Assembly: GCF_016806835.2 (NCBI RefSeq)
Contig: NZ_CP086113.1
Coordinates: 186,001 to 250,000 of the forward strand
Length of the DNA stretch: 64,000 bases
Direction of reading: 5' to 3'
Source of the DNA: Skermanella rosea
GTDB lineage: Bacteria > Pseudomonadota > Alphaproteobacteria > Azospirillales > Azospirillaceae
Positions 34,400-47,229 of this stretch are shown here, in pieces (position 1 is the stretch's first letter; each line of letters begins with the position of its first letter). The position numbers and the translations under genes were made by a program. The notes beneath the pieces are model-generated. The model did not search any database. It was not told where the DNA came from and saw only the letters and a list, made by a program, of their open reading frames with translations.

Positions 34400-35155
34400 G
34401 TGGCTGGCCGGGTTCCCCTCGCCCGGACGCGGGACGGCTTCATCGAGCGGTGGCTGAAGCCCGCGCCCGGAACGGCGCCGCCGACGGGCGGACGCGTTCC
34501 CCTGCCCGGCCTCGGGAAACCTCCCGCCGTCCGGCGCGGCACCGCCCGACTGGCGGGCGGGTCCGGGTCGCCGTACCGCCGGCGCGCGACGGTGATCGTC
34601 TCCTTCCACCGGCTGCGCGGCGCGGGATACGCCAAGCTGCACGCGCACCTCCGCTACGTCGAGCGGCCCGGCGCCGGCGAGCGGGCGGTGGCGGCCGAGC
34701 TGTTCTCCGCCGGGAGCGACGGCGTCCCGGGGCATGAGAGGATCGCGGCGTGGCGGGACGACCGGCACCAGTTCCGGGTCATCCTGGCCCCGGAAGACGG
34801 CCATCGGCTCGACATGACGGCCTACACGCGCGCCTTCATGGCCGAGCTGGAGGCGGCCCTGGGCACCCGGCTCGAGTGGGTCGCCGGCATCCACGAGAAA
34901 GCGGACGCCGCCCACCCGCGGAACCGCCACGCCCACATCGTGATCCGCGGCGTCGACGACACCGGGGCGGACCTGGTGATCGGCCGGGAGTTCATCCGCC
35001 ACGGGATGCGGCGCATCGCCGAGGAGCTGGCGACCCGGCAGCTCGGCCAGATGAGCCAGCGGGAGCTGGACGCCCACCTCGCCCGGCGGGCGGAGCGCGC
35101 CGGGGAGCGGGTCCGCGCCGCCGGCCGGCGCGGGGACGGGCGCGGCCATGACTGA
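34400..35155 (+). CDS. Compact HUH relaxase (DUF3363-related), 251 aa
   Basis: GTG 34400, with GGGAGG about 9 nt upstream. Residues 60-190 carry the relaxase core: HLRYVERPG with the likely nucleophile Tyr86, HQFRVILAPEDGHRLD, and the metal-binding HUH motif HPRNRHAH (H172, H177, H179). DTGADLVIGREFIRHGMRRI follows. These match the Tn4371-type DUF3363 relaxases, but those are about 600-700 residues with a long C-terminal region; here the protein ends right after the core. It nicks oriT and leads the strand into the recipient. Its stop overlaps the VirD4 start by 8 nt. Confidence 0.8.
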   Translation: MAGRVPLARTRDGFIERWLKPAPGTAPPTGGRVPLPGLGKPPAVRRGTARLAGGSGSPYRRRATVIVSFHRLRGAGYAKLHAHLRYVERPGAGERAVAAELFSAGSDGVPGHERIAAWRDDRHQFRVILAPEDGHRLDMTAYTRAFMAELEAALGTRLEWVAGIHEKADAAHPRNRHAHIVIRGVDDTGADLVIGREFIRHGMRRIAEELATRQLGQMSQRELDAHLARRAERAGERVRAAGRRGDGRGHD

Positions 35156-36857
35156 CTTCACCGTCGCCCAGATCATCGCCCACCCGGAGCCGTTCGTGCA
35201 GGCCGCCCGGCTGTGGATATCGTCCAACGCCGCGCTGCTGGCCGGCTGGGCCGCGGGCGCGCTGGCAATCGCCGGGGTGGCCGGGTTCGGGGCCGGCGCG
35301 GTCGCGGACCGGCTGCGCCGGGCGGCCGGGGAGCGGCGCCGGTACGGCGGCCTCCGCGCGGCCCGGAAGGCGGGGCTGCTGCGCAACCCCGGGCTGGAGC
35401 GCTCCGGCATCCCGATCGGCCGGATCGGCCGCAAGCGGCTGTGCTGGGTCGACCAGGAACCGGTGCTGGTCACCGGCGGGACCCGGTCGGGCAAGGGGAC
35501 CGGCGTGATCCGGCCGGCCTGCCTGACCTACGGCGGGCCGATGGTGATGTACGACGGCGGCAAGGGCGAGCTGTTCCGCGACACCTCGGGCTGGCGCGCG
35601 CGCTTCAGCCACGTGCTGAAGCTCGACCTGACCGACCCGGACGGCGTGCACTTCAATTTCCTGGACGAGATCGACCCGGCCAATCCGGTCGCCGGCGCCG
35701 ACAACCTCGCCAAGGCGGTGCCCCGCCCCGACGACGCCGACGGCCATTTCGAGCCGGCGGCCGATCGGCTGATCGCCGCCGTGATCCTGCACGTGCTCCA
35801 CGCCGCGGCGGCCGACCGCCGGAACATGGCCGAGGTCGTGCGCCTGGTCTCCCGGGGCGACGCCGGCATGCGCGACGTCATCCGGAGCGCCGCGCACCCG
35901 GTCGCCGTCGACCGGGTCAACGGGCTGTTCGGCGGGGCCGTGCTCGGCAGCGGCGCCGACGAGGGCATGAAGTACCGGCAGAGCGTCTACAACAGCGCGC
36001 TCGTCCGGCTGTCGGTGTTCGAGGACCCGGTGGTGGCGCGGATCACCGCGCGCTCGGACTTCCGGATGCGGGACCTGTTCCGGCTCAGCCCGCTGCTGCG
36101 GCCGGTGTCGCTGTACCTGACGACGCCGGCGAGCGAGGACGACCGGCTGCGCCCGGCGACCTCGCTGTTCCTGTCGCTGCTGATCGGCGCGATCCTGCGC
36201 GAGCAGCCGGCGCTCGACGGCGAGCCGCGCTGCCTGCTGGTGATCGACGAGTTCGCCAGCCTGCGCATGGAGATCCTGCAGACCGCGATCACCAAGATCG
36301 TCGGGTGCGGCGCCACGATGCTGCTGGGCGCCCAGTCGCTCAACGCGCTGCGCCAGGCGCCCTACGGCCCGTACAACCAGTTCCGGGACAACATCCGCTG
36401 CCACGTCGCGTACGCCGCCAACGACGGCCTGACCCAGCAGGAGATCTCCCGGTCGTGCGGCACGGTCGCGGAGCGGCGCACCTCGGTGAGCCGCGGCCGG
36501 CCGGCCGCGGGCTGGGGCCGGACACACACGGAGACGCGGAGCGAGGTGGAGCGGCCGGTGCTCGACGCCGGCGGGGTCCGGGCGCTGCCCGACCGCGACG
36601 AGCTGATCCTGATCACCGGCCAGCCAGTGATCCGCGCCCGCAAGATCCGCGACTTCAGGGATCCGGTGCTGAGCCGCCGCCTCGGCCTGCCGCCGGCCCC
36701 GATGCGCGGCCGCGACGGGCGCTACCCGGGGCTGCCGCGGTCCCCGGACCCGCAGGGACCGGGGCCGCGCGCGGCGCCCGCCGGGCCGCCGCCCGCGCGG
36801 CCGAAACGCGGGCGCAAGCTGATCGCAGCCCCGAGAGCGACGGATGAGGAAGGTTGA
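35148..36857 (+). CDS. traG: VirD4/TraG-type coupling protein
   Basis: 569 residues. One N-terminal membrane segment (ALLAGWAAGALAIAGVAGFG) is clear. Walker A is GGTRSGKGTG (residues 110-119) and Walker B is CLLVIDEFAS (D367, E368). The last 40 residues are Pro/Arg-rich. It is shorter than most TraG proteins, which have two membrane helices and about 650 residues. This hexameric ATPase links the relaxosome to the type IV channel. It overlaps the genes on both sides. Confidence 0.93.
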   Translation: MTDFTVAQIIAHPEPFVQAARLWISSNAALLAGWAAGALAIAGVAGFGAGAVADRLRRAAGERRRYGGLRAARKAGLLRNPGLERSGIPIGRIGRKRLCWVDQEPVLVTGGTRSGKGTGVIRPACLTYGGPMVMYDGGKGELFRDTSGWRARFSHVLKLDLTDPDGVHFNFLDEIDPANPVAGADNLAKAVPRPDDADGHFEPAADRLIAAVILHVLHAAAADRRNMAEVVRLVSRGDAGMRDVIRSAAHPVAVDRVNGLFGGAVLGSGADEGMKYRQSVYNSALVRLSVFEDPVVARITARSDFRMRDLFRLSPLLRPVSLYLTTPASEDDRLRPATSLFLSLLIGAILREQPALDGEPRCLLVIDEFASLRMEILQTAITKIVGCGATMLLGAQSLNALRQAPYGPYNQFRDNIRCHVAYAANDGLTQQEISRSCGTVAERRTSVSRGRPAAGWGRTHTETRSEVERPVLDAGGVRALPDRDELILITGQPVIRARKIRDFRDPVLSRRLGLPPAPMRGRDGRYPGLPRSPDPQGPGPRAAPAGPPPARPKRGRKLIAAPRATDEEG

Positions 36858-37167
36858 GGTCAAGCTCTACCTGGATCCCGACCTGGCGTCCCGGGTGGCC
36901 GAGGCGACCACACGGTTCCGGTCGGCGGGCCGCAAGGTCAGCCGCAACGACGTGCTGGAGCAGCTGATCGAGGACGGCTTCCGGATGTGGCGCCGCGAGA
37001 CCGAGGCGGTCGGCCGGGTCGAGGCCAGCATCGCCCGGCTGCTCGACCGGTCGGCCCGGCACGACCGGCTGCTGCGCTCGATCCTGCTGACCCTGGCCGA
37101 CGGGGACCAGGCGGAATACCGCAGGGTGGTCGGGATCATCGAGCGGGAGGACGGCGATGCGGCCTGA
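36844..37167 (+). CDS. Ribbon-helix-helix protein of the transfer region, 107 aa
   Basis: It opens with a beta strand and two helices (KVEVKLYLDPDLASRVAEAT and RKVSRNDVLEQLIEDGFRMW), the CopG/MobC-type DNA-binding fold. A long C-terminal helix follows, probably for oligomerisation. The Ti/Tn4371 systems have a comparable small gene between traG and trbB. It overlaps traG by 14 nt and trbB by 11 nt. It could bind the GACTAC palindromes (inference). Confidence 0.8.
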   Translation: MRKVEVKLYLDPDLASRVAEATTRFRSAGRKVSRNDVLEQLIEDGFRMWRRETEAVGRVEASIARLLDRSARHDRLLRSILLTLADGDQAEYRRVVGIIEREDGDAA

Positions 37168-38122
37168 CCCGGCGGTTCCGGACCTGACGGCGGCCAACCG
37201 GGCGGAAAGCCTGCGCCGGCGCCTCGAGGACCTGGAGGACGCCTACGGCCCGACGATCCGCGCGGCGCGGACCCTGGCCGGGTGCACGGACATCGCGGTG
37301 AACGAGGACGGCGCGATCTGGATCACGGTCGGCGGGCAGGACAGGCCGGCCGGCGCCCACCTGTCCGAGCAGGCGGCCCGGCGGATCGTGGCCCTGGTGG
37401 CCGACATCGACAGCCACCCGGTGGAGAAGGCGGCGCTCTCGGCCAACCTGCCGACCGGCGAGCGGTTCGCGGCCCTGCTGCCGCCGACCGTGCGGCGGAT
37501 CGTCTTCTCGATCCGCCTGCCGCCGGGACGGATCTTCACCCTGGAGGACTACATCGCGGCCGGCATCATGGCCGAGGCCCAGGCCGACACGCTGCGCCGC
37601 GCGGTGGCCGAGCGGCGCAACATCCTGATCGTGGGCGGCACCGGGGCGGGCAAGAGCACGCTGGCCAACGCGCTGCTGGCGGAGCCGGACTTCCGGGCGA
37701 GCCGGACCTGCATCATCCAGGACCAGGACGAGCTGAAATGCAGCGGGCCGAACGTGGTGCGCGCCTTCACCGGCCCGATGACGGCGCGCGAGCTGGTGCG
37801 CGAGTTCCTCCGGCACAATCCCGACCGGATCGTGATCGGCGAGATCCGCGACGGCCACACGGCGCTGGAATGGATCTCGGCGAGCAACACCGGCCATCCC
37901 GGCGGGCTGTCGACCGCCCACGCCAACTCGGCGGCGCACGGCCTGTCGCGGATCTCCCGGCTGATCGGGCAGGTCGCCGTCAACGTACCCCACGCCGACA
38001 TCGCCGAGGCGGTGGAGCTGGTCGCCTTCCTCCGGCGGGAGCGGGACGGCTCGAGGCGCTTGGCCGAGATCGTCCGGCCGGCGGGGCACGACGGCGGGCG
38101 GTACCTGACCGAACCCGCGTGA
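37157..38122 (+). CDS. trbB: TrbB/VirB11-type secretion ATPase
   Basis: 321 residues. The N-terminal domain reads LRRRLEDLEDAYGPTIRAAR. The P-loop is GGTGAGKST (residues 160-168). The Asp box DQDELKCSGPN, the Walker B region RIVIGEIRDGHTALEW and the His box GHPGGLSTAHANSA follow in TrbB order. The cytoplasmic hexamer powers pilus assembly and DNA transfer. Last gene of the first unit. Confidence 0.95.
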   Translation: MRPDPAVPDLTAANRAESLRRRLEDLEDAYGPTIRAARTLAGCTDIAVNEDGAIWITVGGQDRPAGAHLSEQAARRIVALVADIDSHPVEKAALSANLPTGERFAALLPPTVRRIVFSIRLPPGRIFTLEDYIAAGIMAEAQADTLRRAVAERRNILIVGGTGAGKSTLANALLAEPDFRASRTCIIQDQDELKCSGPNVVRAFTGPMTARELVREFLRHNPDRIVIGEIRDGHTALEWISASNTGHPGGLSTAHANSAAHGLSRISRLIGQVAVNVPHADIAEAVELVAFLRRERDGSRRLAEIVRPAGHDGGRYLTEPA

Positions 38123-38177: not shown

Positions 38178-38198
38178 AAAAACTTGGGAGGTAGACCG

Positions 38199-38510
38199 AT
38201 GCGAACCGCTTATCCGTCTGTCACCATCGGGCTGATCGCCGTCCTGGCCACAGCCCCGGCGCTGGCCCAGTTCGCCGGCGGGGGCACCGCGGCACCCTTC
38301 CAGCAGGGCATGAGCACCGTGCTGAACTGGGCCTTCGTCGCCGGCGTCGCGATCGCCCTGTTCAGCTTCCTGCTGGCCTGCGTCTTCCTGTTCATGCGGA
38401 ACCTGATCGGCTTCGCCGGCGGCGTGCTGGGCGTCGTGATCGGCGGCGCGATGATGGCCAACGCGCCGACCCTGGTCCAGTCCCTGACCGGCCTGACCAG
38501 CGCGTTCTGA
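38199..38510 (+). CDS. trbC: TrbC/VirB2-type major pilin
   Basis: 103 residues from ATG 38199 (GGGAGG upstream). The signal peptide ends at ALA-QF (residues 1-24). Two hydrophobic helices follow: TVLNWAFVAGVAIALFSFLL and IGFAGGVLGVVIGGAMMANA. The mature pilin of about 78 residues is typical. Head-to-tail cyclisation, known for TrbC of RP4, cannot be judged; no traF-like peptidase is in the window. Confidence 0.92.
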   Translation: MRTAYPSVTIGLIAVLATAPALAQFAGGGTAAPFQQGMSTVLNWAFVAGVAIALFSFLLACVFLFMRNLIGFAGGVLGVVIGGAMMANAPTLVQSLTGLTSAF

Positions 38511-38513
38511 CCC

Positions 38514-38789
38514 GTGGAGACGGGGCGCACCTACAAGAGCCTGGAGGTGCCGCCGAACTATTTCGGCTGCCACATCCACGTCGCCCTGATCGCCATCCTG
38601 ACGCCGGTGGCGGCGCTCCTGGGGTTCCTGTTCCTGCCCTGGCTGGCGGCCCTGCTGCTGGTCCTGGGCGCCCTGGCGCTGTCGGCGGCGATCTTCGGCA
38701 TCGGTGCCTGGCTGGGCCGCGCCGACCCGTTCTGGGTCGAGGGCGGGCAGCGGCACCTCCTGGACGAGGAGAGCTACCTCGATGTTTAG
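38514..38789 (+). CDS. trbD: TrbD/VirB3-type inner-membrane protein
   Basis: 91 residues from GTG 38514, 3 bp after trbC. One hydrophobic hairpin (VALIAILTPVAALLGFLFLP and AALLLVLGALALSAAIFGIG) is followed by GRADPFWVEG, the conserved TrbD tail. It overlaps trbE by 8 nt. Confidence 0.9.
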   Translation: METGRTYKSLEVPPNYFGCHIHVALIAILTPVAALLGFLFLPWLAALLLVLGALALSAAIFGIGAWLGRADPFWVEGGQRHLLDEESYLDV

Positions 38790-41274
38790 GATCGGCGCCA
38801 GCCGGGGCGCCGCCGCCGTTCCGCTGACCGAGCGGCTGCCGTGGGCCTACTTCGCGGGGCGCGGCATCGTGTTCCTGAAGTTCGGCGGGTTCCAGCGGAC
38901 CCTGCGGTTCCGCGGCGGCGACGCCGCCAGCATGGGCGAGGGCGAACTGGACGCGGCCATGGCGCGGCTGCACGACGCCCTGCGCCGGGTGCGCGGGCAG
39001 ATGAGCCTGCACCTCGAGGCGCGCCGGGTCCGGGCGGCCCCCTATCCCGGGGGAGAGCTGTCCGACCCCGACCGGCGCCGGCAGTGGCCGGACCCGGTCT
39101 CGTTCCTGTTCGACGAGGAGCGGCGGGACGCCTACGACCGGGCCGGCGCCCATTTCGAGACCGAACGCTACGTCACCTTCGTCTGGCGGTGCGCCGCCGC
39201 GGCGGCGCAGCGGGCGCGCTCCCTGTTCGTGACCGGCCGGGGCGGCGGCGGGACCGGCAAGGAGGGAGAGCGGGAGCTCCACGAGTTCGTCCAGGCCAGC
39301 GACACCGTCAAGGGGCTGCTGGACGGGGTCATGAAGGAATGCCGCTGGCTGGACGACGGGGAGACCTTCGACTTCCTGCACAAGGCGGTCTCCACCGGCG
39401 GCCACCCGGTCCGGCCGTCGCACGGCAAGGCGCGGATCGACTACGACGTCGCCGACTGCCGCGTGGTCGGCGGCGCGGAGCCGATGCTGGGCGGCTGCCC
39501 GATGCGGGTGATCTCGGTCAGGAACGCGCCCGACACGGTTCCGGCCGCCCTGGCGGCGCTCGACACCGTGCCCTTCGAGCACCGCTGCACGCTGCGCTGG
39601 ATGGGCCTGGAGCACGGCGAGGGCCTGCGGCGGATCGAGAGCCAGCTGCGGGACTGGGAGATGCTGGGCATCGCCATGGTCCCGATGCTGATCTCGTACC
39701 TGCTGAGGAGCGACCGGCAGAAGACCAGCGAGGCGGCCAACGCCATGGCCGAGGACGCCCGCGAGGCGCTGCACGCCGCCCGGCGGGATGAGCTGACGAT
39801 CGGCTACGCCAACCTCAACGTCGTGCTGTGGGACCGCGACAGGATCGGGCTGGAGGGGCGGATCCGGACGGTGACCGACATCCTGCAGCGGCTGGGGCTG
39901 ACGGTGACGAGCTACGCGGTGGCGCCGGTGGACACCTGGCTCGGCACCCTGCCCGGCCACATCTACGCCGACCTGCGCCGGCCGATCCGGACCAGCGTCA
40001 ACCTGGCCCACTTCGCGCCCTACTCGTCGGTGTGGAGCGGCGACGCGCGCAACGGGCATCTGGGCGGCGCGCCCCTGCTGATCGCCACGACCGACGGCTC
40101 GACGCCGTTCCGGATCAACCTGCACCGGGGCGACCTGGGGCATACCCTGGTCCTGGGACCGTCCGGCGCCGGCAAGACGACCCTGCTGAACGCCCTGTGC
40201 GTCGGGTGGCGCCGCTATAAGCGCGCCAGGGTGTGCATCTTCACGATCAAGGGCGGCGGCGAGATCCTGACCCGGATGCTGGGCGGCGTCTCCTACGATG
40301 TCGGCGCCGTCGGCCGGGACGCCCTCGGCTTCCAGCCGCTGCGCCACGCCGACGACCCCGACGAGCGGATCGAGCTGCTGGACTGGATCCTCGGCCTGCT
40401 GCGCGACCAGGGGGTGGCGGTCGACACCGGGGTGCGCGAGGAGGTCACCGGCGCGCTGGACCTGATCGCCGGCAACCCGCCCCGCCGGCGGACCCTGACC
40501 CACCTGTCGGGATACCTGGGCCGCCCGGCGCTCAAGCGGGCGATCCAGCACTACGCCCTCGACGGCGGGAACTACGGCCGGCTGCTGGACGACGACGAGG
40601 ACCGCATCGCGCTGTCCGACATCCTCAGCCTGGACATGACCGAGCTGCTGAAGAAGTCCGACATCGCGCCGCATGTCCTGGCGCACCTGTTCCGCTACGT
40701 GGAGCGCCGGGTGTTCACGGGCGATCCGGTCCTGCTGGTGGTCGACGAGGCGTGGCGGTTCCTGGGCGACGCGCTGTTCACGGCCAAGTTCGAGGAATGG
40801 CTGCGCGCCGCGCGCTCCAGGAACGTCGTCGTGGTGTTCGCCACCCAGAACATGAAGGATGCCTTCGACGGCACGATCGGCCGGGTCCTGGCCGACGCGG
40901 AGAACGTGCCGAACATCATCCTGCTGCCCAACGACCGGGCGCTCAGCGAGAAGGGCCGGAGGCCCTACGAGCAGCTGGGCTTCAACGAGCGGGACATCGG
41001 GATCGTCGGCCGGGCGTGCCCGAAGCGCCAGTACTACTTCACCTGCCCGGCCGGCCGGCGCCTGTTCGACCTCGAGCTCGGCCAGCTCGGCACGACGCTC
41101 TGCGCCTCGACCTCGACGGAGGACCTGAAGGCCGCCCGCCGGATCCTGGCCGACCAGCCGGACAGGTTCGCCGAGCGGTTCCTGGACGCCAAGGGCGTCG
41201 GCTGGGCCGCCGAGTACATCCGGCAGGAACGGGAGGACCGCGAGGCGGCCGGAACGGACGCCGCCGCCGCATAG
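38782..41274 (+). CDS. trbE: TrbE/VirB4-type conjugation ATPase
   Basis: 830 residues. The N-terminal CagE/TrbE domain reads PWAYFAGRGIVFLKFGGFQR. Walker A is LGPSGAGKTT (from residue 458) and Walker B is LLVVDEAWRFL (D655, E656). FATQNMKDAFDG and NIILLPNDRA, the RAFIT-like region, follow. It is full length for the family. It works with TrbB and TraG at the base of the channel. Confidence 0.95.
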   Translation: MFRIGASRGAAAVPLTERLPWAYFAGRGIVFLKFGGFQRTLRFRGGDAASMGEGELDAAMARLHDALRRVRGQMSLHLEARRVRAAPYPGGELSDPDRRRQWPDPVSFLFDEERRDAYDRAGAHFETERYVTFVWRCAAAAAQRARSLFVTGRGGGGTGKEGERELHEFVQASDTVKGLLDGVMKECRWLDDGETFDFLHKAVSTGGHPVRPSHGKARIDYDVADCRVVGGAEPMLGGCPMRVISVRNAPDTVPAALAALDTVPFEHRCTLRWMGLEHGEGLRRIESQLRDWEMLGIAMVPMLISYLLRSDRQKTSEAANAMAEDAREALHAARRDELTIGYANLNVVLWDRDRIGLEGRIRTVTDILQRLGLTVTSYAVAPVDTWLGTLPGHIYADLRRPIRTSVNLAHFAPYSSVWSGDARNGHLGGAPLLIATTDGSTPFRINLHRGDLGHTLVLGPSGAGKTTLLNALCVGWRRYKRARVCIFTIKGGGEILTRMLGGVSYDVGAVGRDALGFQPLRHADDPDERIELLDWILGLLRDQGVAVDTGVREEVTGALDLIAGNPPRRRTLTHLSGYLGRPALKRAIQHYALDGGNYGRLLDDDEDRIALSDILSLDMTELLKKSDIAPHVLAHLFRYVERRVFTGDPVLLVVDEAWRFLGDALFTAKFEEWLRAARSRNVVVVFATQNMKDAFDGTIGRVLADAENVPNIILLPNDRALSEKGRRPYEQLGFNERDIGIVGRACPKRQYYFTCPAGRRLFDLELGQLGTTLCASTSTEDLKAARRILADQPDRFAERFLDAKGVGWAAEYIRQEREDREAAGTDAAAA

Positions 41275-41289
41275 CAGGAGGATCAAACG

Positions 41290-43185
41290 ATGCGCCGCAT
41301 CACGCTGGTTCTCGCCGGGACGCTTCTCGGCGCACCGGCCCTCGCCGAGACGATCACGATCGGCCCGGGCCAGAGCGTCACCGACGCCGCCCGGCGCCTC
41401 GCGCCCGGCGACACCCTGCTGCTGGCGCCCGGCACGTACAACGAGTCGGTCGACCTCAGCGGCCTGCACGGCAGGGAGGGCGCGCCGATCACGATCCGGG
41501 CCGCGGCCGGCCCGGGAACCGCCGTGATCAACGGAGGCAGGAACACGGCGGCGGTCCAGGCGAACCGCATCAGCCACGTGGCGGTCCGCGACCTGGTCGT
41601 CGTCGCCAACGCCGGGGGAACCGACGACGACGTGGGCGGCTTCAAGATCTGGGGGAGCTGGGACAATCCGGCCCGCCACCTGGAGTTCACCGGCAATACG
41701 ATCACCGGCCGGGGGCAGGACGGCTTCAAGCTGTTCCAGGGCGCCCACGACGTGCTGGTCGCCGGCAACACCCTGGACGGCGACTGGCGCCAGGAAGCGA
41801 TCGACAACGTCTCGGTCCGCGACACCGTCTACGCCGGCAACACGATCGTCGGCCGGGCCGGGTTCTCGGGCCTCACCCTGAAGGCGGGCAGCCGGGACAA
41901 CGTCGTCCGCGACAACCGGATCGACGTCGACGCGCCGACCCAGCTCAGCGTCGGGGGATACGGAAACTCGCGCCTGGACCGGGAGTTCCCGGCGGAGTGG
42001 CAGGGCTTCGAGGCCAGGAACACCACGGTCACCGGCAACGCGATCGACGGCAGCGTGCGCCTGGTCTCGGCGGTGGACAACAGGATCACCGGCAACGCCA
42101 TCACCGGTCCGGTGAGCAGCGGCACCAATGTCCACATGCCGAACTCCGTCAGAAGTTCGGGCAACACCGTGGACGACGGCTCGCGCCTGGAACGGGGCGT
42201 GGACGGGGTCGGGGCGAACATCGGCGACACGGGATCGAACATCTCGGGCTCGGTCGACCGCGGGGCCTACCGCTCCCAGCGACGCCTGGAGGATCTGCTG
42301 TCCGGCGACGGGATCACCCGCCAGGCCAACCGGGCGATCGACGGGGCGACCGGCGCCGTCACCGGCGCGATCGACAGGGCCATCGACGAGACGACCGACA
42401 CGGTGATGCAGCCGGTCGAGGACATGATCGACGGCATCGGCCAGACCCTGTCGTGCAACGTCGCCGGCGCCGCGGTCGCCGGCGCGGCCGGCATCGTCAG
42501 CGGGATCTTCAGCGGCGGCAGGGCGACGCTGGGCGCCCAGCTGGCGCAGCACATGACCCAGATCGCCGGGAACCTGTGCCTGGGCAAGCAGCTCGCGGCC
42601 CAGCGCCGGCAGCTCGAGGTGCAGCGCCGGATGCTCGACCTCGAACGGCGCAACATCGCGGCCGGCACGGCCGACAACGCGGCCGGCCTCGACGGCCTGA
42701 TGGCGAGGACCCTGCCCGGGCTGGACCGGGCGGGGTTCCTGCTGTCCGAACCGCGGATCGAGGATCAGTATCGGCAAACCTATCCCGACATGTTCCCGCC
42801 CCTGCCGCCGGACGGACTGGTCGAGGTCGAGGACGGGTTGCGCCGGCACGAGCGCGACGCGCATCTCCGGTCGCTCGCCCTGCAGAACCGGGCGGTCCAG
42901 GAGCAGGCCGGCACCCTCGGCCGGGCCGTGGACCATGCCGCCGCCGGTCGTGCCGGCCCGGGCCTGCGCTCCGAACTCCAGGCCATGAACGCCATCCAGG
43001 GCGAGACGATCGCGTCGATCAACGTCCTGACCGCGGCCACGGTGGGCCACCAGCGGGCCGTGACCGAGGCACGCCTGCGCGACGAGACCAGGAGAACCGC
43101 CGCCAACGCGACGGCGAAGGAGTTCATGAGCACGCTCGCCGTCTGCGGCAATTGCAACATCAGCCGCCCGTTCCTGGGCGATTAG
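41290..43185 (+). CDS. trbJ: TrbJ/VirB5-like protein fused to an N-terminal parallel beta-helix
   Basis: 631 residues, against about 250 for ordinary TrbJ. The signal peptide is MRRITLVLAGTLLGAPALA. Residues 20-320 are a right-handed beta-helix of NosD/pectate-lyase type: LAPGTYNESVDLSGLHG, then repeated N-x-I-x-G turns (FTGNTITGRGQDGFKLFQGA, YAGNTIVGRAGFSGLTLKAG, VTGNAIDGSVRLVSAVDNRI). Residues 340-420 are a Gly/Ala linker. From about 430 the TrbJ part appears: long helices (KQLAAQRRQLEVQRRMLDLE), YRQTYPDMFPPLPPDG, LQAMNAIQGETIASINVLTA. The last residues are CGNCNISRPFLGD. It occupies the trbJ place between trbE and trbK. VirB5 proteins sit at the pilus tip, so the helix may bind or process surface glycans (inference). 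Confidence 0.8.
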   Translation: MRRITLVLAGTLLGAPALAETITIGPGQSVTDAARRLAPGDTLLLAPGTYNESVDLSGLHGREGAPITIRAAAGPGTAVINGGRNTAAVQANRISHVAVRDLVVVANAGGTDDDVGGFKIWGSWDNPARHLEFTGNTITGRGQDGFKLFQGAHDVLVAGNTLDGDWRQEAIDNVSVRDTVYAGNTIVGRAGFSGLTLKAGSRDNVVRDNRIDVDAPTQLSVGGYGNSRLDREFPAEWQGFEARNTTVTGNAIDGSVRLVSAVDNRITGNAITGPVSSGTNVHMPNSVRSSGNTVDDGSRLERGVDGVGANIGDTGSNISGSVDRGAYRSQRRLEDLLSGDGITRQANRAIDGATGAVTGAIDRAIDETTDTVMQPVEDMIDGIGQTLSCNVAGAAVAGAAGIVSGIFSGGRATLGAQLAQHMTQIAGNLCLGKQLAAQRRQLEVQRRMLDLERRNIAAGTADNAAGLDGLMARTLPGLDRAGFLLSEPRIEDQYRQTYPDMFPPLPPDGLVEVEDGLRRHERDAHLRSLALQNRAVQEQAGTLGRAVDHAAAGRAGPGLRSELQAMNAIQGETIASINVLTAATVGHQRAVTEARLRDETRRTAANATAKEFMSTLAVCGNCNISRPFLGD

Positions 43186-43200
43186 ACAGGAGGCACCATC

Positions 43201-43374
43201 ATGAGACACTTGGCAACGGCTGCACTCGTTCTGGCGGGCCTGACGGTTACCGCATGCTGGGACGATGAGAAAGAGAAAAAATCCTCAGAGTTCATGTCAA
43301 ACTTAACGAAGTGCGAGAACTGCAAGATTGATAAGCCATTTCTTGGCTCAACGGAGAAGATCGATGAACCCTGA
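43201..43374 (+). CDS. trbK: TrbK-like entry-exclusion lipoprotein, 57 aa
   Basis: Lipoprotein signal MRHLATAALVLAGLTVTAC, with Cys19 as the lipid site, then a short charged domain. ATG 43201 follows AGGAGGCACC. Position between trbJ and trbL and size match TrbK, which blocks entry of the same plasmid into the cell. Its tail KCENCKIDKPFLG repeats the end of the upstream TrbJ fusion (CGNCNISRPFLG). Codon use is AT-richer than in its neighbours. The stop overlaps trbL by 11 nt. Confidence 0.75.
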   Translation: MRHLATAALVLAGLTVTACWDDEKEKKSSEFMSNLTKCENCKIDKPFLGSTEKIDEP

Positions 43375-44536
43375 TTATAGCTATGATTACGCTTACCTGA
43401 ACACTGCTATTACTGACATGCTGGGACGTATCACGTCGGTTGGTGGGGTGATTGATGCCGCATTACAGCCGGTATATTTCATTGTTGGCGTGTTGCTCCT
43501 GGTGTTGGCTTGCATCAAGTTCATGTGGCAGCGAGATTTAGCTCCATTGGCCCTTTTTGTAGTCCGATATATTCAGCTGATGGTGCTGATTCTTATCTCA
43601 GGCCAATGGATGCCACTGGCCGATGGTTATGTATCCCAGATGGGTGCCTTTGGAGCCAATGCAGCTGGATTCGATGTTCTTCAGTTGGCACCAGGAACTG
43701 TGATCATCCGCGCTTTGGAAATCGCAAATCGGATGTACACGGAGAATGTATCGTGGATGCGTGTACTATTCGGTTCATCGGAAGATACGATTGCTCATGT
43801 CCTGCTGCTGCTTGGATGCGCTGGCACGATCTTGATGAGCATTTTCATGGCTGCCTGGATCATGCTGTTTTTCGTCGTATTCAAACTGGCGTCGGTTGTT
43901 GCTCTAGTCTTTTTGGCATTTCTAATGTTTGAGGGCACGCGGTTCATGGCAGCGCCCGGTCTTGCCCGCATTTTGGCTTATGGTGTCCAAATGCTGGTGC
44001 TGAGTCTCGCCACAGGCTTGTTCTTTATGACCTTGGATGCACTCGACCTCAGCGGACACCTGCATGTAGGACAATCAGTGGCTCTGCTTGTGGTCATGTT
44101 CTTTTTCGGGCTGCTGTTCAAGTATACGACGGATATCGCCAAGGAACAGGTCACCGGCGTGCCGACCCTGTCGCTGCATGACACCGGCCAGCTTGCAGGC
44201 CGTGCCGCAGCCACTGCCGCATCGATGGTCGGCCACATCGGAACGGTCGGGCTCGGTACGCTGGGAGCCTTGAGGCTGACCGGCGCTGCCACAGCCGGGA
44301 GATACGCCAGCATTCCCACTTCGACCTCGGGCGCCGCCGCATCGTCAGGCATGAGACACGCCGTAGAAGGAGGTGCCGCCGAGGCACCGGCCACAGTTGC
44401 CCGTTTGCTGAACCGCTCGCCGATAGACGCCACATGGACCGAAGCCCGCGACCTCCCCCGGACGGCGGCACGCCTGCTGGAAGCGCGCCGCGCCCTGCCG
44501 CCGCCACCGCGCCAGCTACCCCCACCCCGTTCATGA
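43364..44536 (+). CDS. trbL: TrbL/VirB6-type polytopic channel protein
   Basis: 390 residues from ATG 43364. At least five hydrophobic segments lie in residues 35-265 (PVYFIVGVLLLVLACIKFMW, YIQLMVLILISGQWMPLADG, HVLLLLGCAGTILMSIFMAA, LFFVVFKLASVVALVFLAFL, SVALLVVMFFFGLLFKYTTD). The cytoplasmic tail is Ala/Pro/Arg-rich. The first 780 bases have about half G+C, while the tail from about 44140 returns to the high GC of the operon, so the gene is a mosaic. Confidence 0.9.
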   Translation: MNPDYSYDYAYLNTAITDMLGRITSVGGVIDAALQPVYFIVGVLLLVLACIKFMWQRDLAPLALFVVRYIQLMVLILISGQWMPLADGYVSQMGAFGANAAGFDVLQLAPGTVIIRALEIANRMYTENVSWMRVLFGSSEDTIAHVLLLLGCAGTILMSIFMAAWIMLFFVVFKLASVVALVFLAFLMFEGTRFMAAPGLARILAYGVQMLVLSLATGLFFMTLDALDLSGHLHVGQSVALLVVMFFFGLLFKYTTDIAKEQVTGVPTLSLHDTGQLAGRAAATAASMVGHIGTVGLGTLGALRLTGAATAGRYASIPTSTSGAAASSGMRHAVEGGAAEAPATVARLLNRSPIDATWTEARDLPRTAARLLEARRALPPPPRQLPPPRS

Positions 44537-44548
44537 TCGGAGTTTCCC

Positions 44549-45229
44549 ATGTTCGGATTTAGCCGAAGCAAGTGGAAGGAAGAGGACGAGTACAAGCGGG
44601 CCCGATGGGCCTACGAGGGCCAGGGTGCCGCCGCGACCAAGGCGGCGTGGTTCCTTGGCTTCGGCCTGATCGCCATGACGGGATTCGCCGCCCTGCAGAC
44701 CTGGGACAAGCACCTGTTGGCCAGCCTGGGCGACCTGAAGTTCGCGACCATCGAAACCTCCCGGACGACCGGCGACGTGGTCAGCGTGTCGATCACCGAC
44801 GGCGAGCTGGTGGTCGACGAAACCAAGCGGCGCCAGTTCCTCAAATGGTGGATCCCGCTCTGGAGGGCGGTCCCGGCCGACGCCGTGGCCTACAATCACA
44901 ACTACCTGACGTCCCAGATCTACATGAGCGAACCGGTATACCACCGTGTCGCGGAGTACATGGCGGCGAACCCGGTGGACCAGTTCATCAGGGCGGGCAA
45001 CGCCCGCATGGTGCGCGTCCAGAACGTGACGCCCACCGGCACCGGAACGCGCTACCGGGTGGACTGGATCGAGAGCGTCTACCGCCATTCCCAGCTCGTC
45101 GCGCAGATCCCGATGACGGCCGACATCGACCTGGAGCAGCACACGCCCCGCACCGAGGCGGAGGCCGAGGCCAATATCTTCGGCTTCGTGATAGAAGGCT
45201 TCTACTGGACCCCCTCTCCGGGAACCTGA
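44549..45229 (+). CDS. trbF: TrbF/VirB8-type assembly protein
   Basis: 226 residues. Short cytoplasmic N-terminus, one membrane helix (AAWFLGFGLIAMTGFAALQT), then the periplasmic NTF2-like domain with RRQFLKWWIPLWRAVPAD and YRVDWIESVYRH. It is the assembly factor of the channel. GGAG lies 8 nt before ATG. Last gene of the second unit. Confidence 0.93.
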   Translation: MFGFSRSKWKEEDEYKRARWAYEGQGAAATKAAWFLGFGLIAMTGFAALQTWDKHLLASLGDLKFATIETSRTTGDVVSVSITDGELVVDETKRRQFLKWWIPLWRAVPADAVAYNHNYLTSQIYMSEPVYHRVAEYMAANPVDQFIRAGNARMVRVQNVTPTGTGTRYRVDWIESVYRHSQLVAQIPMTADIDLEQHTPRTEAEAEANIFGFVIEGFYWTPSPGT

Positions 45230-45272: not shown

Positions 45273-45295
45273 AGACCGGAACAGGGATGGTATCG

Positions 45296-46165
45296 ATGAG
45301 ACGCGCCGCCGTTCTTTTGCTGTCCTGCCTCTCGGGAGCCTGTTCGCCCTCACCGGGATACCAGCCTCCCCTGCCCACTCTCCCGTCGGCCGCCGCGTCC
45401 CTGCCGGTCCCGGCGGCCAGACCGCCGCCGCCGGAAACCTTGCCCAAGCTGCCTCCCGAAGACCCCGTCAGGGCGACTGTCACCGCGCTGAGGGAGGGAT
45501 TGGTGAAGCCGCGCCGGGAATGGTTCAAGGGAGTGACCTACGCCCCGCCCTACCATCCCAACCACAGCTACCTGGTCTACATTCCCGAAGGAGCCGTCTC
45601 GACGTTCGAATTCACCCCCGGAGAGAAGCCGCGTCCGGCCTACTGCGGCGACGGCGGCGTGATCCTGTCGCAGTCATGGTCGCACCTGGGCACCGGGCCG
45701 TCGAAGGCGTGGGTCTGGCACGTCAAGGCCAAGATGACCGCACCGCGCCAGACCTGCACGGTCACGACCAGCCGCGGCATCTACCGCGTGGTCATCCAGC
45801 CGACGGCCAGCACGCACATCCCCGCCGTCCACTGGTCCGATCCCTACGGGTTCCTGTCGCCCGCCGATCCCGCGGCGCCGGAGATGATCTGCCAGAAGGC
45901 CGACATCAACTACGCCTTCGCCGGGGATCCCGGCGCCTTCGGCCTGCGCCCCGGCGACGTCTCCAACGACGGGATGCACACCTGCATCCAATTTCCCCAG
46001 TCCGCCGGTTTCGCCACGCCGGCGGTCTGGCTGATCGAGGGTGACCAGGCACGTCCGGCCAGCCCGACCATGATCGACGGCGCATACCTGGTCGACGGCG
46101 TCCCCGCCGTCCTCGAGTTGCGCACCGACACCGCGACACTGCGCATCGAAAGGTCCATCCCATGA
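45296..46165 (+). CDS. trbG: TrbG/VirB9-type outer-membrane-associated lipoprotein
   Basis: 289 residues from ATG 45296 (45287 is also possible). Lipobox LSGAC near residue 17, then a Pro-rich linker. The VirB9 beta domain reads VSTFEFTPGEKPRPAYCGDG, TTSRGIYRVVIQPTA and DINYAFAGDPGAFGLRP. It forms the outer core with TrbI. The stop overlaps trbI (ATGA). Confidence 0.92.
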   Translation: MRRAAVLLLSCLSGACSPSPGYQPPLPTLPSAAASLPVPAARPPPPETLPKLPPEDPVRATVTALREGLVKPRREWFKGVTYAPPYHPNHSYLVYIPEGAVSTFEFTPGEKPRPAYCGDGGVILSQSWSHLGTGPSKAWVWHVKAKMTAPRQTCTVTTSRGIYRVVIQPTASTHIPAVHWSDPYGFLSPADPAAPEMICQKADINYAFAGDPGAFGLRPGDVSNDGMHTCIQFPQSAGFATPAVWLIEGDQARPASPTMIDGAYLVDGVPAVLELRTDTATLRIERSIP

Positions 46166-47229
46166 CTTATGCCGAGCCACCGCGGCCGGTGGACGATCCC
46201 CGCCCGCCGGTCGAAACCCTGCGCAAATGGCCGTTCGTCGTGATGGGGCTCGCCGCCGTCGCGGTCCTCGGCGCCGTCACCATCGGCCCCTCGCTGCTGC
46301 GCGGGGAGCCGGAAAGCAGACGGATTGAGCCGGAGCCCCGGACGAGCACCCCGCGCCCCCTGCAGGGCCTGCCGCTGGACTACACCCAGGTGGTCCAGCA
46401 GCCGCCGCCTCCGGTACCGGAACCGGCGCCGCCGCCGGCCCCCGAACCGGCCGCACAGGCCCCGGCCGCCCCGGCCATCGGAATGGAAGGAATGCGACCG
46501 CAAGGCCCGACCCGGGCCGAATTGCTCAAGGCGGCCCGCATGGCCGATCTCGCGGCGGTGCCGGTCGCCGCCGCCGGCGCGGTCGAGGATACGGAACCGG
46601 GCGGCGGTCCCGCCGCGTCCGGCAGCAGGCTTTACAGCCGCCATTCGCTGACCGATCCGTTCCCCTGCCAGGTCAATGCCGGCGTCAGCATTCCCGCCAT
46701 GACGGAGCAGCGCATCACCAGCGAGTCGCCGGGCACCGTCTCCGCCATCGTCACCCGGGATATCTGGAGCGCCGACAAGACCTGCCTGGCCATGCCCCGC
46801 GGGACGCGCTTCGTCGGCCGGTACCAGACCGCGGTTGCCGAAGGCCAGGCCCGCCTCGGCATCGTGTGGACCGGCCTGACCCGCCCGCCCCCGCGCAACG
46901 ACACGATCGACCTCGACGACACCGTGGCCGGCGATCCGGACGGCACGGCCGGGCTGAGCGGCGAGGTCAACGCCCACTTCTGGCGCAAGCTGGGCTACGT
47001 CGCCGCCGCCTCGATCCTCGACATCACGAAGACCGCCATCACGGCCAGCGGCGAAGGAGGCATGGGGGCAGCCATTGCCGGTATTTTCGCTAATCGCGCG
47101 ACAAACCCTATGGACGAGTGGGCGCGGAGACAGTTAGACATCCCGCCGGTTATAGAGGTGGAGCCCCGCGAGATCACCATCGTCCTCGCCCGGCATGTCC
47201 CTCTGGACGAGTTCAGAACCAGGAGATGA
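46162..47229 (+). CDS. trbI: TrbI/VirB10-type scaffold protein
   Basis: 355 residues. Cytoplasmic N-terminus, one membrane helix (FVVMGLAAVAVLGAVTIGPS), a Pro-rich periplasmic stretch, then the VirB10 beta-barrel: YSRHSLTDPFPCQVNAGVSI, MPRGTRFVGRYQTAVAEGQA, RLGIVWTGLTRP, and the end EITIVLARHVPLDEF. It spans both membranes and senses ATPase energy. Last canonical transfer gene; trbH is not present. Confidence 0.95.
   Translation: MTYAEPPRPVDDPRPPVETLRKWPFVVMGLAAVAVLGAVTIGPSLLRGEPESRRIEPEPRTSTPRPLQGLPLDYTQVVQQPPPPVPEPAPPPAPEPAAQAPAAPAIGMEGMRPQGPTRAELLKAARMADLAAVPVAAAGAVEDTEPGGGPAASGSRLYSRHSLTDPFPCQVNAGVSIPAMTEQRITSESPGTVSAIVTRDIWSADKTCLAMPRGTRFVGRYQTAVAEGQARLGIVWTGLTRPPPRNDTIDLDDTVAGDPDGTAGLSGEVNAHFWRKLGYVAAASILDITKTAITASGEGGMGAAIAGIFANRATNPMDEWARRQLDIPPVIEVEPREITIVLARHVPLDEFRTRR

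Follow-up and report, generated by a model that had tools for sequence, protein, structure and literature searches.

Within the 64,000-nucleotide stretch of Skermanella rosea DNA analysed here (the window; positions 186001-250000 of the 529-kb contig C3, in a genome of 7.76 Mb), the gene in the trbJ place of a conjugation operon encodes a 631-residue protein that joins a β-helix to a TrbJ/VirB5 domain. The best reading, to which we assign a probability of about 0.55 as a whole, is that this is a TrbJ/VirB5 minor pilin with a β-helix acquired just after the signal peptide and ahead of the mature N-terminus, and that the added domain serves at the pilus tip as an exchangeable module for binding, and perhaps cleaving, surface polysaccharide. 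We infer both the display at the tip and the activity.

The fusion gene (41290..43185, + strand, as are all features below) is an open frame with an ATG start and no internal stop. It begins 16 bases from the last base of trbE, closely preceded by a Shine-Dalgarno sequence of its own (AGGAGG); full-length homologs exist on two other replicons. The product is predicted to be exported: its first 20 residues (MRRITLVLAGTLLGAPALA-E; 41290..41349) read as a signal peptide, with a hydrophobic core (hydropathy window of 1.65 at residues 6-24) and an ALA cleavage motif near residue 20. AlphaFold2 models residues 21-288 as strands, for the most part at pLDDT above 90, and residues 325-619 as helices at pLDDT of about 30-72. 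The former region (41350..42153) is, by this model and by structure matches, a right-handed parallel β-helix. It is followed by a linker (residues 289-388; 42154..42453) modelled as low-confidence helix (pLDDT 23-55) and by a hydrophobic Gly/Ala-rich segment (CNVAGAAVAGAAGIVSGIF, residues 389-407; 42454..42510), recognized from hydropathy (mean 1.67) and alignment, which opens the TrbJ-related part. Residues 433-615 (42586..43134) match TrbJ models by NCBIfam and hhalign, and the C-terminal tail (EFMSTLAVCGNCNISRPFLGD; 43120..43182) was found in a motif search of the genome to be common to the next gene. The original prediction of a signal peptide, a NosD/pectate-lyase-type β-helix and a TrbJ part in the trbJ slot is thus confirmed by the open frame, the structure prediction, the profiles and the operon. 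The fusion itself stands as described, and the domain limits have to be moved: the β-helix ends near residue 288, and the TrbJ-related part starts near 389, not 430. A chance open frame is ruled out by homology along the whole length and by the conserved residues.

The operon around the gene is a complete MPF_T conjugation operon, with the order relaxase, virD4/traG, CopG-like, trbB, C, D, E, fusion, lipoprotein, trbL, F, G and I. It starts with an RlxS-like relaxase domain protein (34400..35155; NCBIfam relax_RlxS, 2e-42, with part of the model covered), a VirD4/TraG coupling protein (35148..36857; Pfam T4SS-DNA_transf, 1.7e-51) and a small CopG-like gene assigned by reading, without a family match. 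The TrbB/VirB11 ATPase (37157..38122; NCBIfam TrbB_P, 7.9e-77) is followed by a TrbC/VirB2 pilin candidate (38184..38510), placed by position and a 78% identical C6 copy, without a family match, and by a TrbD/VirB3 candidate (38514..38789), placed by position and an 82% identical C6 copy. Next to the fusion gene stands the TrbE/VirB4 ATPase (38704..41274; NCBIfam TrbE, 6.3e-207, from residue 40). Downstream, after the small lipoprotein gene, lie TrbL/VirB6 (43328..44536; Pfam TrbL, 7.4e-11), TrbF/VirB8 (44549..45229; Pfam VirB8, 3.3e-16), TrbG/VirB9 (45287..46165; Pfam CagX, 1.4e-17) and TrbI/VirB10 (46162..47229; NCBIfam VirB10, 3.1e-29). The relaxase-like protein (34400-35155) is short, with 251 residues against a model of 654 positions, and is about equally short in the C6 operon.

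Homology of the fused C-terminal part to TrbJ is firm at the level of sequence profiles. By itself the window protein is marginal against PRK13874 (E = 0.054 with the full sequence, 0.011 with its C-terminal part), whereas its full-length, 45% identical homolog on contig C2 matches PRK13874 at 3.4e-11 and TIGR02780 at 1.3e-6 over the C-terminal 200 residues; all of these matches of fusions lie below the curated cut-offs. A profile of four fused C-termini aligned by hhalign with a profile of seven ordinary TrbJs at E = 5.2e-12, a test that is not wholly independent because the seven were first picked with a related profile which also held an unfused TrbJ-slot protein. All seven match PRK13874 strongly in its own search. 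The ordinary TrbJ of the C7 T4SS is matched at 2e-7 by the same profile of fused C-termini and at 2.5e-7 by an HMM in which these C-termini are included. The C2 match and the hhalign result rule out that the C-terminal part is unrelated to TrbJ, so the relationship originally proposed is upheld: marginally for the window protein, significantly for the C2 homolog.

The hydrophobic segment at residues 389-407 recurs in the fusions of C6 and C2, and it lines up with the start of the mature form of an unfused 267-residue TrbJ-slot protein from another Skermanella. Since that protein starts, after its signal peptide, with the post-linker segment, the β-helix and linker sit between the signal peptide and mature TrbJ. 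This Gly/Ala-rich segment (42454-42510), found in all fusions, may correspond to the end of VirB5 for which membrane contact has been proposed.

The fusion recurs within Skermanella. Full-length copies lie on two more replicons, C6 (53.8 kb; 57% identical) and C2 (613 kb), and all three, that of C3 included, stand between trbE/virB4 and trbL/virB6. In S. mucosa, pSM-1 carries a truncated copy in which residues 149-631 are 93% identical and the join is kept; trbE and the upstream T4SS genes are gone. An assembly error at the join is ruled out by its recurrence on three replicons and in S. mucosa, at four loci. A fourth replicon of the genome, C7, has a T4SS with an ordinary TrbJ (TIGR02780, 2.3e-9) and, at the operon end, a separate gene for a secreted β-helix protein of 398 residues that has a signal peptide and is a relative of the fused β-helices: the two parts are thus linked even when unfused. 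The C7 β-helix gene lies at L039:2959-4155 of this 35-kb replicon, where a large transposase-like ORF and a resolvase-like ORF split the operon between trbJ and trbL. What pSM-1 carries (locus L031) is the 3' half of the T4SS found in the window, and an IS5 transposase adjoins the point, near residue 149, at which its fusion gene is cut.

Comparison of these copies shows that the β-helix does not track the machine that carries it. C3 and C6 are sister machines, with TrbB, F, G and I 67-78% identical, and C2 is distant from both (24-44%); the T4SS backbones of C2 and C6 are 29-42% identical. The C2 and C6 fusions, however, are mostly 70-90% identical over residues 126-455 (lowest windows 57% and 67%), linker included (74%), and then drop to 10-30%, a sharp fall that lies inside the TrbJ domain. 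The N-terminal half of the C2 β-helix is closest to that of C7 (72%). The trees show the same discord: TrbB and TrbE each set C3 and C6 apart from the rest (support 100 each), while the β-helix of C6 groups with those of C2 and C7 (support 100), within a group in which the four T4SS β-helices stand apart from free ones (support 97). This disagreement between backbone and β-helix, in identities and in trees, indicates that the module moved between machines by recombination, and the plasmids seem to have swapped the domain among themselves, in the way that phages trade tail-spike domains. With a dN/dS of 0.25, the stretch shared by C2 and C6 is under purifying selection. The companion copies of the fusion, the unfused version on C7 and the exchange of the module together form the strongest evidence for a function.

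Outside Skermanella, no other fusion was found among about 115 TrbJ matches from two overlapping, non-exhaustive genome samples, searched with profiles that do not reach all VirB5 proteins: 385 Alphaproteobacteria genomes with PRK13874, with inspection of long frames, and 398 Pseudomonadota genomes with TIGR02780, with inspection of seven of the longest or oddest frames. None of the inspected long TrbJ frames contained a β-helix; they were long because they extended into DNA upstream, in a frame other than that of the gene there. The exception is one locus (L126, G790:C10) at which a TrbJ-like gene forms one uninterrupted frame with a VirB6-like gene, an in-frame run-on in which the two may be fused or simply neighbors. 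A scan of the genome collection returned free β-helices only, the plasmid collection gave matches with good coverage in Skermanella only, and viral contigs gave no match. The genomes, plasmids and viral contigs searched gave no sign of a widespread architecture. The original prediction that this form of TrbJ is undescribed agrees with these surveys, in which the same fusion recurs within Skermanella and nowhere else.

The β-helix resembles enzymes that act on acidic polysaccharides. Pfam Beta_helix matches residues 117-212 of the fusion (E = 5.6e-5, just under the curated cut-off), and there is weak profile similarity to AlgE4 (2.6e-9), PL6 lyases and PsAly. In Foldseek and VIA-align comparisons PsAly, an alginate lyase (6kfn), ranks first among the structural neighbors, with Z 28.9 and an rmsd of 1.9 over 250 residues. 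Next come an alginate epimerase/lyase at Z 28.0 and, at Z of about 27, AlgE epimerases; other sugar-acting enzymes and tailspikes rank lower. The modelled domain thus has the right-handed β-helix fold of PL31/PL6/AlgE lyases and epimerases, shared with PsAly, PL6 lyases and AlgE A-modules over 250-277 residues at rmsd 1.9-3.0 and about 15-19% identity, but only the fusion sits on a T4SS protein.

Conservation marks out a charged cluster, D144, K147, E169, D172 and K198 (41719..41883), as a candidate binding or active site. Across 27 homologous β-helices, fused and free, D144, K147, D172 and K198 are invariant and E169 is 85% conserved; the other invariant positions are mostly Asn, Gly and Ala, as expected of a β-helix core. 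K147, D172 and K198 are roughly one coil apart (25-26 residues), and from this spacing they would stack on one face. PsAly has a cation site formed by Glu181, Glu216 and Asp219, and Tyr184 and Lys221 also belong to its catalytic residues (PMC6796002). The two proteins have a similar E-x-x-D spacing, which is a likeness of spacing and not a residue-level mapping. The modelled fold neighbors (alginate lyases, epimerases and tailspikes) and the five conserved charged positions make a polysaccharide target more likely. Many β-helix proteins are not enzymes.

Several known systems share parts of this design. Ordinary TrbJs of MPF_T plasmids (PRK13874/NF010448, TIGR02780) and VirB5/TrwJ have the same gene place, a signal peptide and a long helical C-terminal domain. 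Profile-level homology to the fusion extends over about 200 residues, but ordinary TrbJ has about 240 residues against 631, and in the fusion a β-helix and linker are inserted after the signal peptide; the TrbJ part of the fusion scores far below the curated cut-off, and the CxNC tail described below is absent from the ordinary TrbJs looked at. Phage tailspike depolymerases (such as CBA120 TSP2 and Sf6) are a functional analog: they match the β-helix fold (Z about 24-25) and, as the fusion would, they place an exchangeable module where a DNA-delivery machine makes contact. Tailspikes, however, are virion proteins with no detected sequence homology to the fusion, whereas the T4SS version rides on a minor pilin. 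Conjugation systems have other exchangeable recipient-recognition parts in the PilV adhesins of R64 thin pili and TraN of F; these are unrelated proteins, and neither is a VirB5 or has a β-helix lyase fold. The closest free-standing relatives, in Skermanella and Arenibaculum, are RTX-tailed proteins whose β-helices are 42-51% identical to that of the fusion and have the same invariant D/K/D/K, but which end in RTX repeats instead of TrbJ. In Skermanella they lie outside T4SS operons, beside sulfate-activation and sulfotransferase genes. Such a neighborhood, with cysC, cysD and a sulfotransferase gene, occurs in several Skermanella genomes (L040, L032, L060), and its gene content suggests a sulfated-polysaccharide modification island.

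Display of the β-helix at the pilus tip would fit published work on VirB5. A published model has a VirB5 pentamer sitting on VirB6 and terminating at the pilus tip (PMC12857230). In R388 the N-terminal part of VirB5 points outward, and contact with the recipient membrane has been proposed for it (PMC9259494), so a domain fused ahead of the TrbJ N-terminus would lie outermost. On this reading, the fusion protein would be exported to the periplasm, assemble as a tip complex on TrbL/VirB6 and be pushed out on the pilus, with several β-helices forming its outermost part. There they would bind, and possibly depolymerize, acidic capsule or exopolysaccharide. Conjugation is strongly hindered by capsules and slime, most of all where the pili are of the short, rigid MPF_T type (PMC10918111), and the module would let such a pilus engage or penetrate a slime-covered cell. 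As the target polysaccharide varies, the module would be exchanged between co-resident plasmids independently of the machine. Two considerations count against the tip reading: the TrbJ domain is modelled as helices of low to medium pLDDT and gave no significant PDB match, even when searched alone, and several bulky β-helices would need to pass through the outer-membrane core complex.

The genomic context of the free relatives also allows a different target. It is possible, though in our view unlikely, that the module acts on the donor's own exopolysaccharide, clearing slime for the emerging pilus or anchoring the pilus in the matrix. The nearest free relatives in the genus are the RTX-tailed β-helices beside cysC, cysD and a sulfotransferase gene, neighbors that may indicate action on the cell's own polysaccharide and so tell against a recipient target. 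The T4SS-linked β-helices nevertheless form a clade of their own, and own-slime clearing would not require exchange between plasmids of one host.

We consider it improbable that the β-helix is cargo or a processed secreted enzyme, cut from or exported with TrbJ and free in the medium or periplasm. C7, with its separate β-helix gene and signal peptide, is what that would look like, and the low-confidence linker (289-388) could be a cleavage region; against this, three of the four operons retain the fusion, as does S. mucosa, and the linker's identity between C2 and C6 means that it is conserved along with the module. Least probable of the three is a purely structural role, in which the domain would have no carbohydrate to bind and would serve as an inert spacer or shield the surface, for instance from phages that attach to pili. 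β-helices are commonly inert scaffolds, and between C3 and C6 the dN/dS of the β-helix exceeds that of TrbJ (0.71 versus 0.35), which would suit a shield on which selection is relaxed or diversifying. That comparison is not clean, because the β-helices have not descended purely vertically and divergence at synonymous sites is considerable. An inert role is harder to reconcile with the four charged residues that, besides the Asn ladder and glycines, are invariant among the homologs, or with the low dN/dS of the C2-C6 stretch.

If the pilus-tip module is the right reading, a VirB5-family protein with a lyase-fold domain would give conjugation a device for recipient recognition or coat penetration at the tip. 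Phages carry depolymerases (PMC8259999, PMC10918111); in the literature searched, we found no conjugation machine described with one. T4SSs that are distant relatives within a single cell have exchanged the module, and this points to surface specificity as a target of selection. An insertion that nature has made after the signal peptide and ahead of VirB5 also suggests that the tip can accommodate an extra domain of some 270 residues, a point of relevance to VirB5 assembly and extrusion. A broader proposal, which we hold only tentatively and at less than even odds, is that some conjugative pili carry a tip depolymerase: an enzymatic β-helix on TrbJ would open the recipient's coat, and co-resident plasmids would recombine tips and so change which recipients can be reached.

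A further feature concerns the gene after the fusion, which encodes a 57-residue lipoprotein (43201..43374; lipobox LTVTAC) in the slot of trbK (entry exclusion), the known place of which is between trbJ and trbL (PMC8923210). This lipoprotein has no significant family match (EexN model, E = 0.046, under the cut-off). TrbK-type exclusion proteins of IncP plasmids have no known donor partner (PMC8923210). Among other TrbJs and adjoining lipoproteins no common tails were found, with a crude lipoprotein finder for which some reported frames were wrong. In both C3 and C6, a motif EFMS-L-x-C-x-N-C-x-I-x-x-PFLG occurs at the end of the fusion and again near the end of the trbK-slot lipoprotein; a genome search returned these two fusion tails and two lipoproteins and no other occurrence. 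The likeness spans the C-terminal 20-24 or so residues of the fusion, and the same pair is present on pSM-1 of S. mucosa. The trbK-slot lipoprotein may mimic or bind the docking end of TrbJ, and the shared CxNC...PFLG tail is a possible exclusion or decoy peptide.
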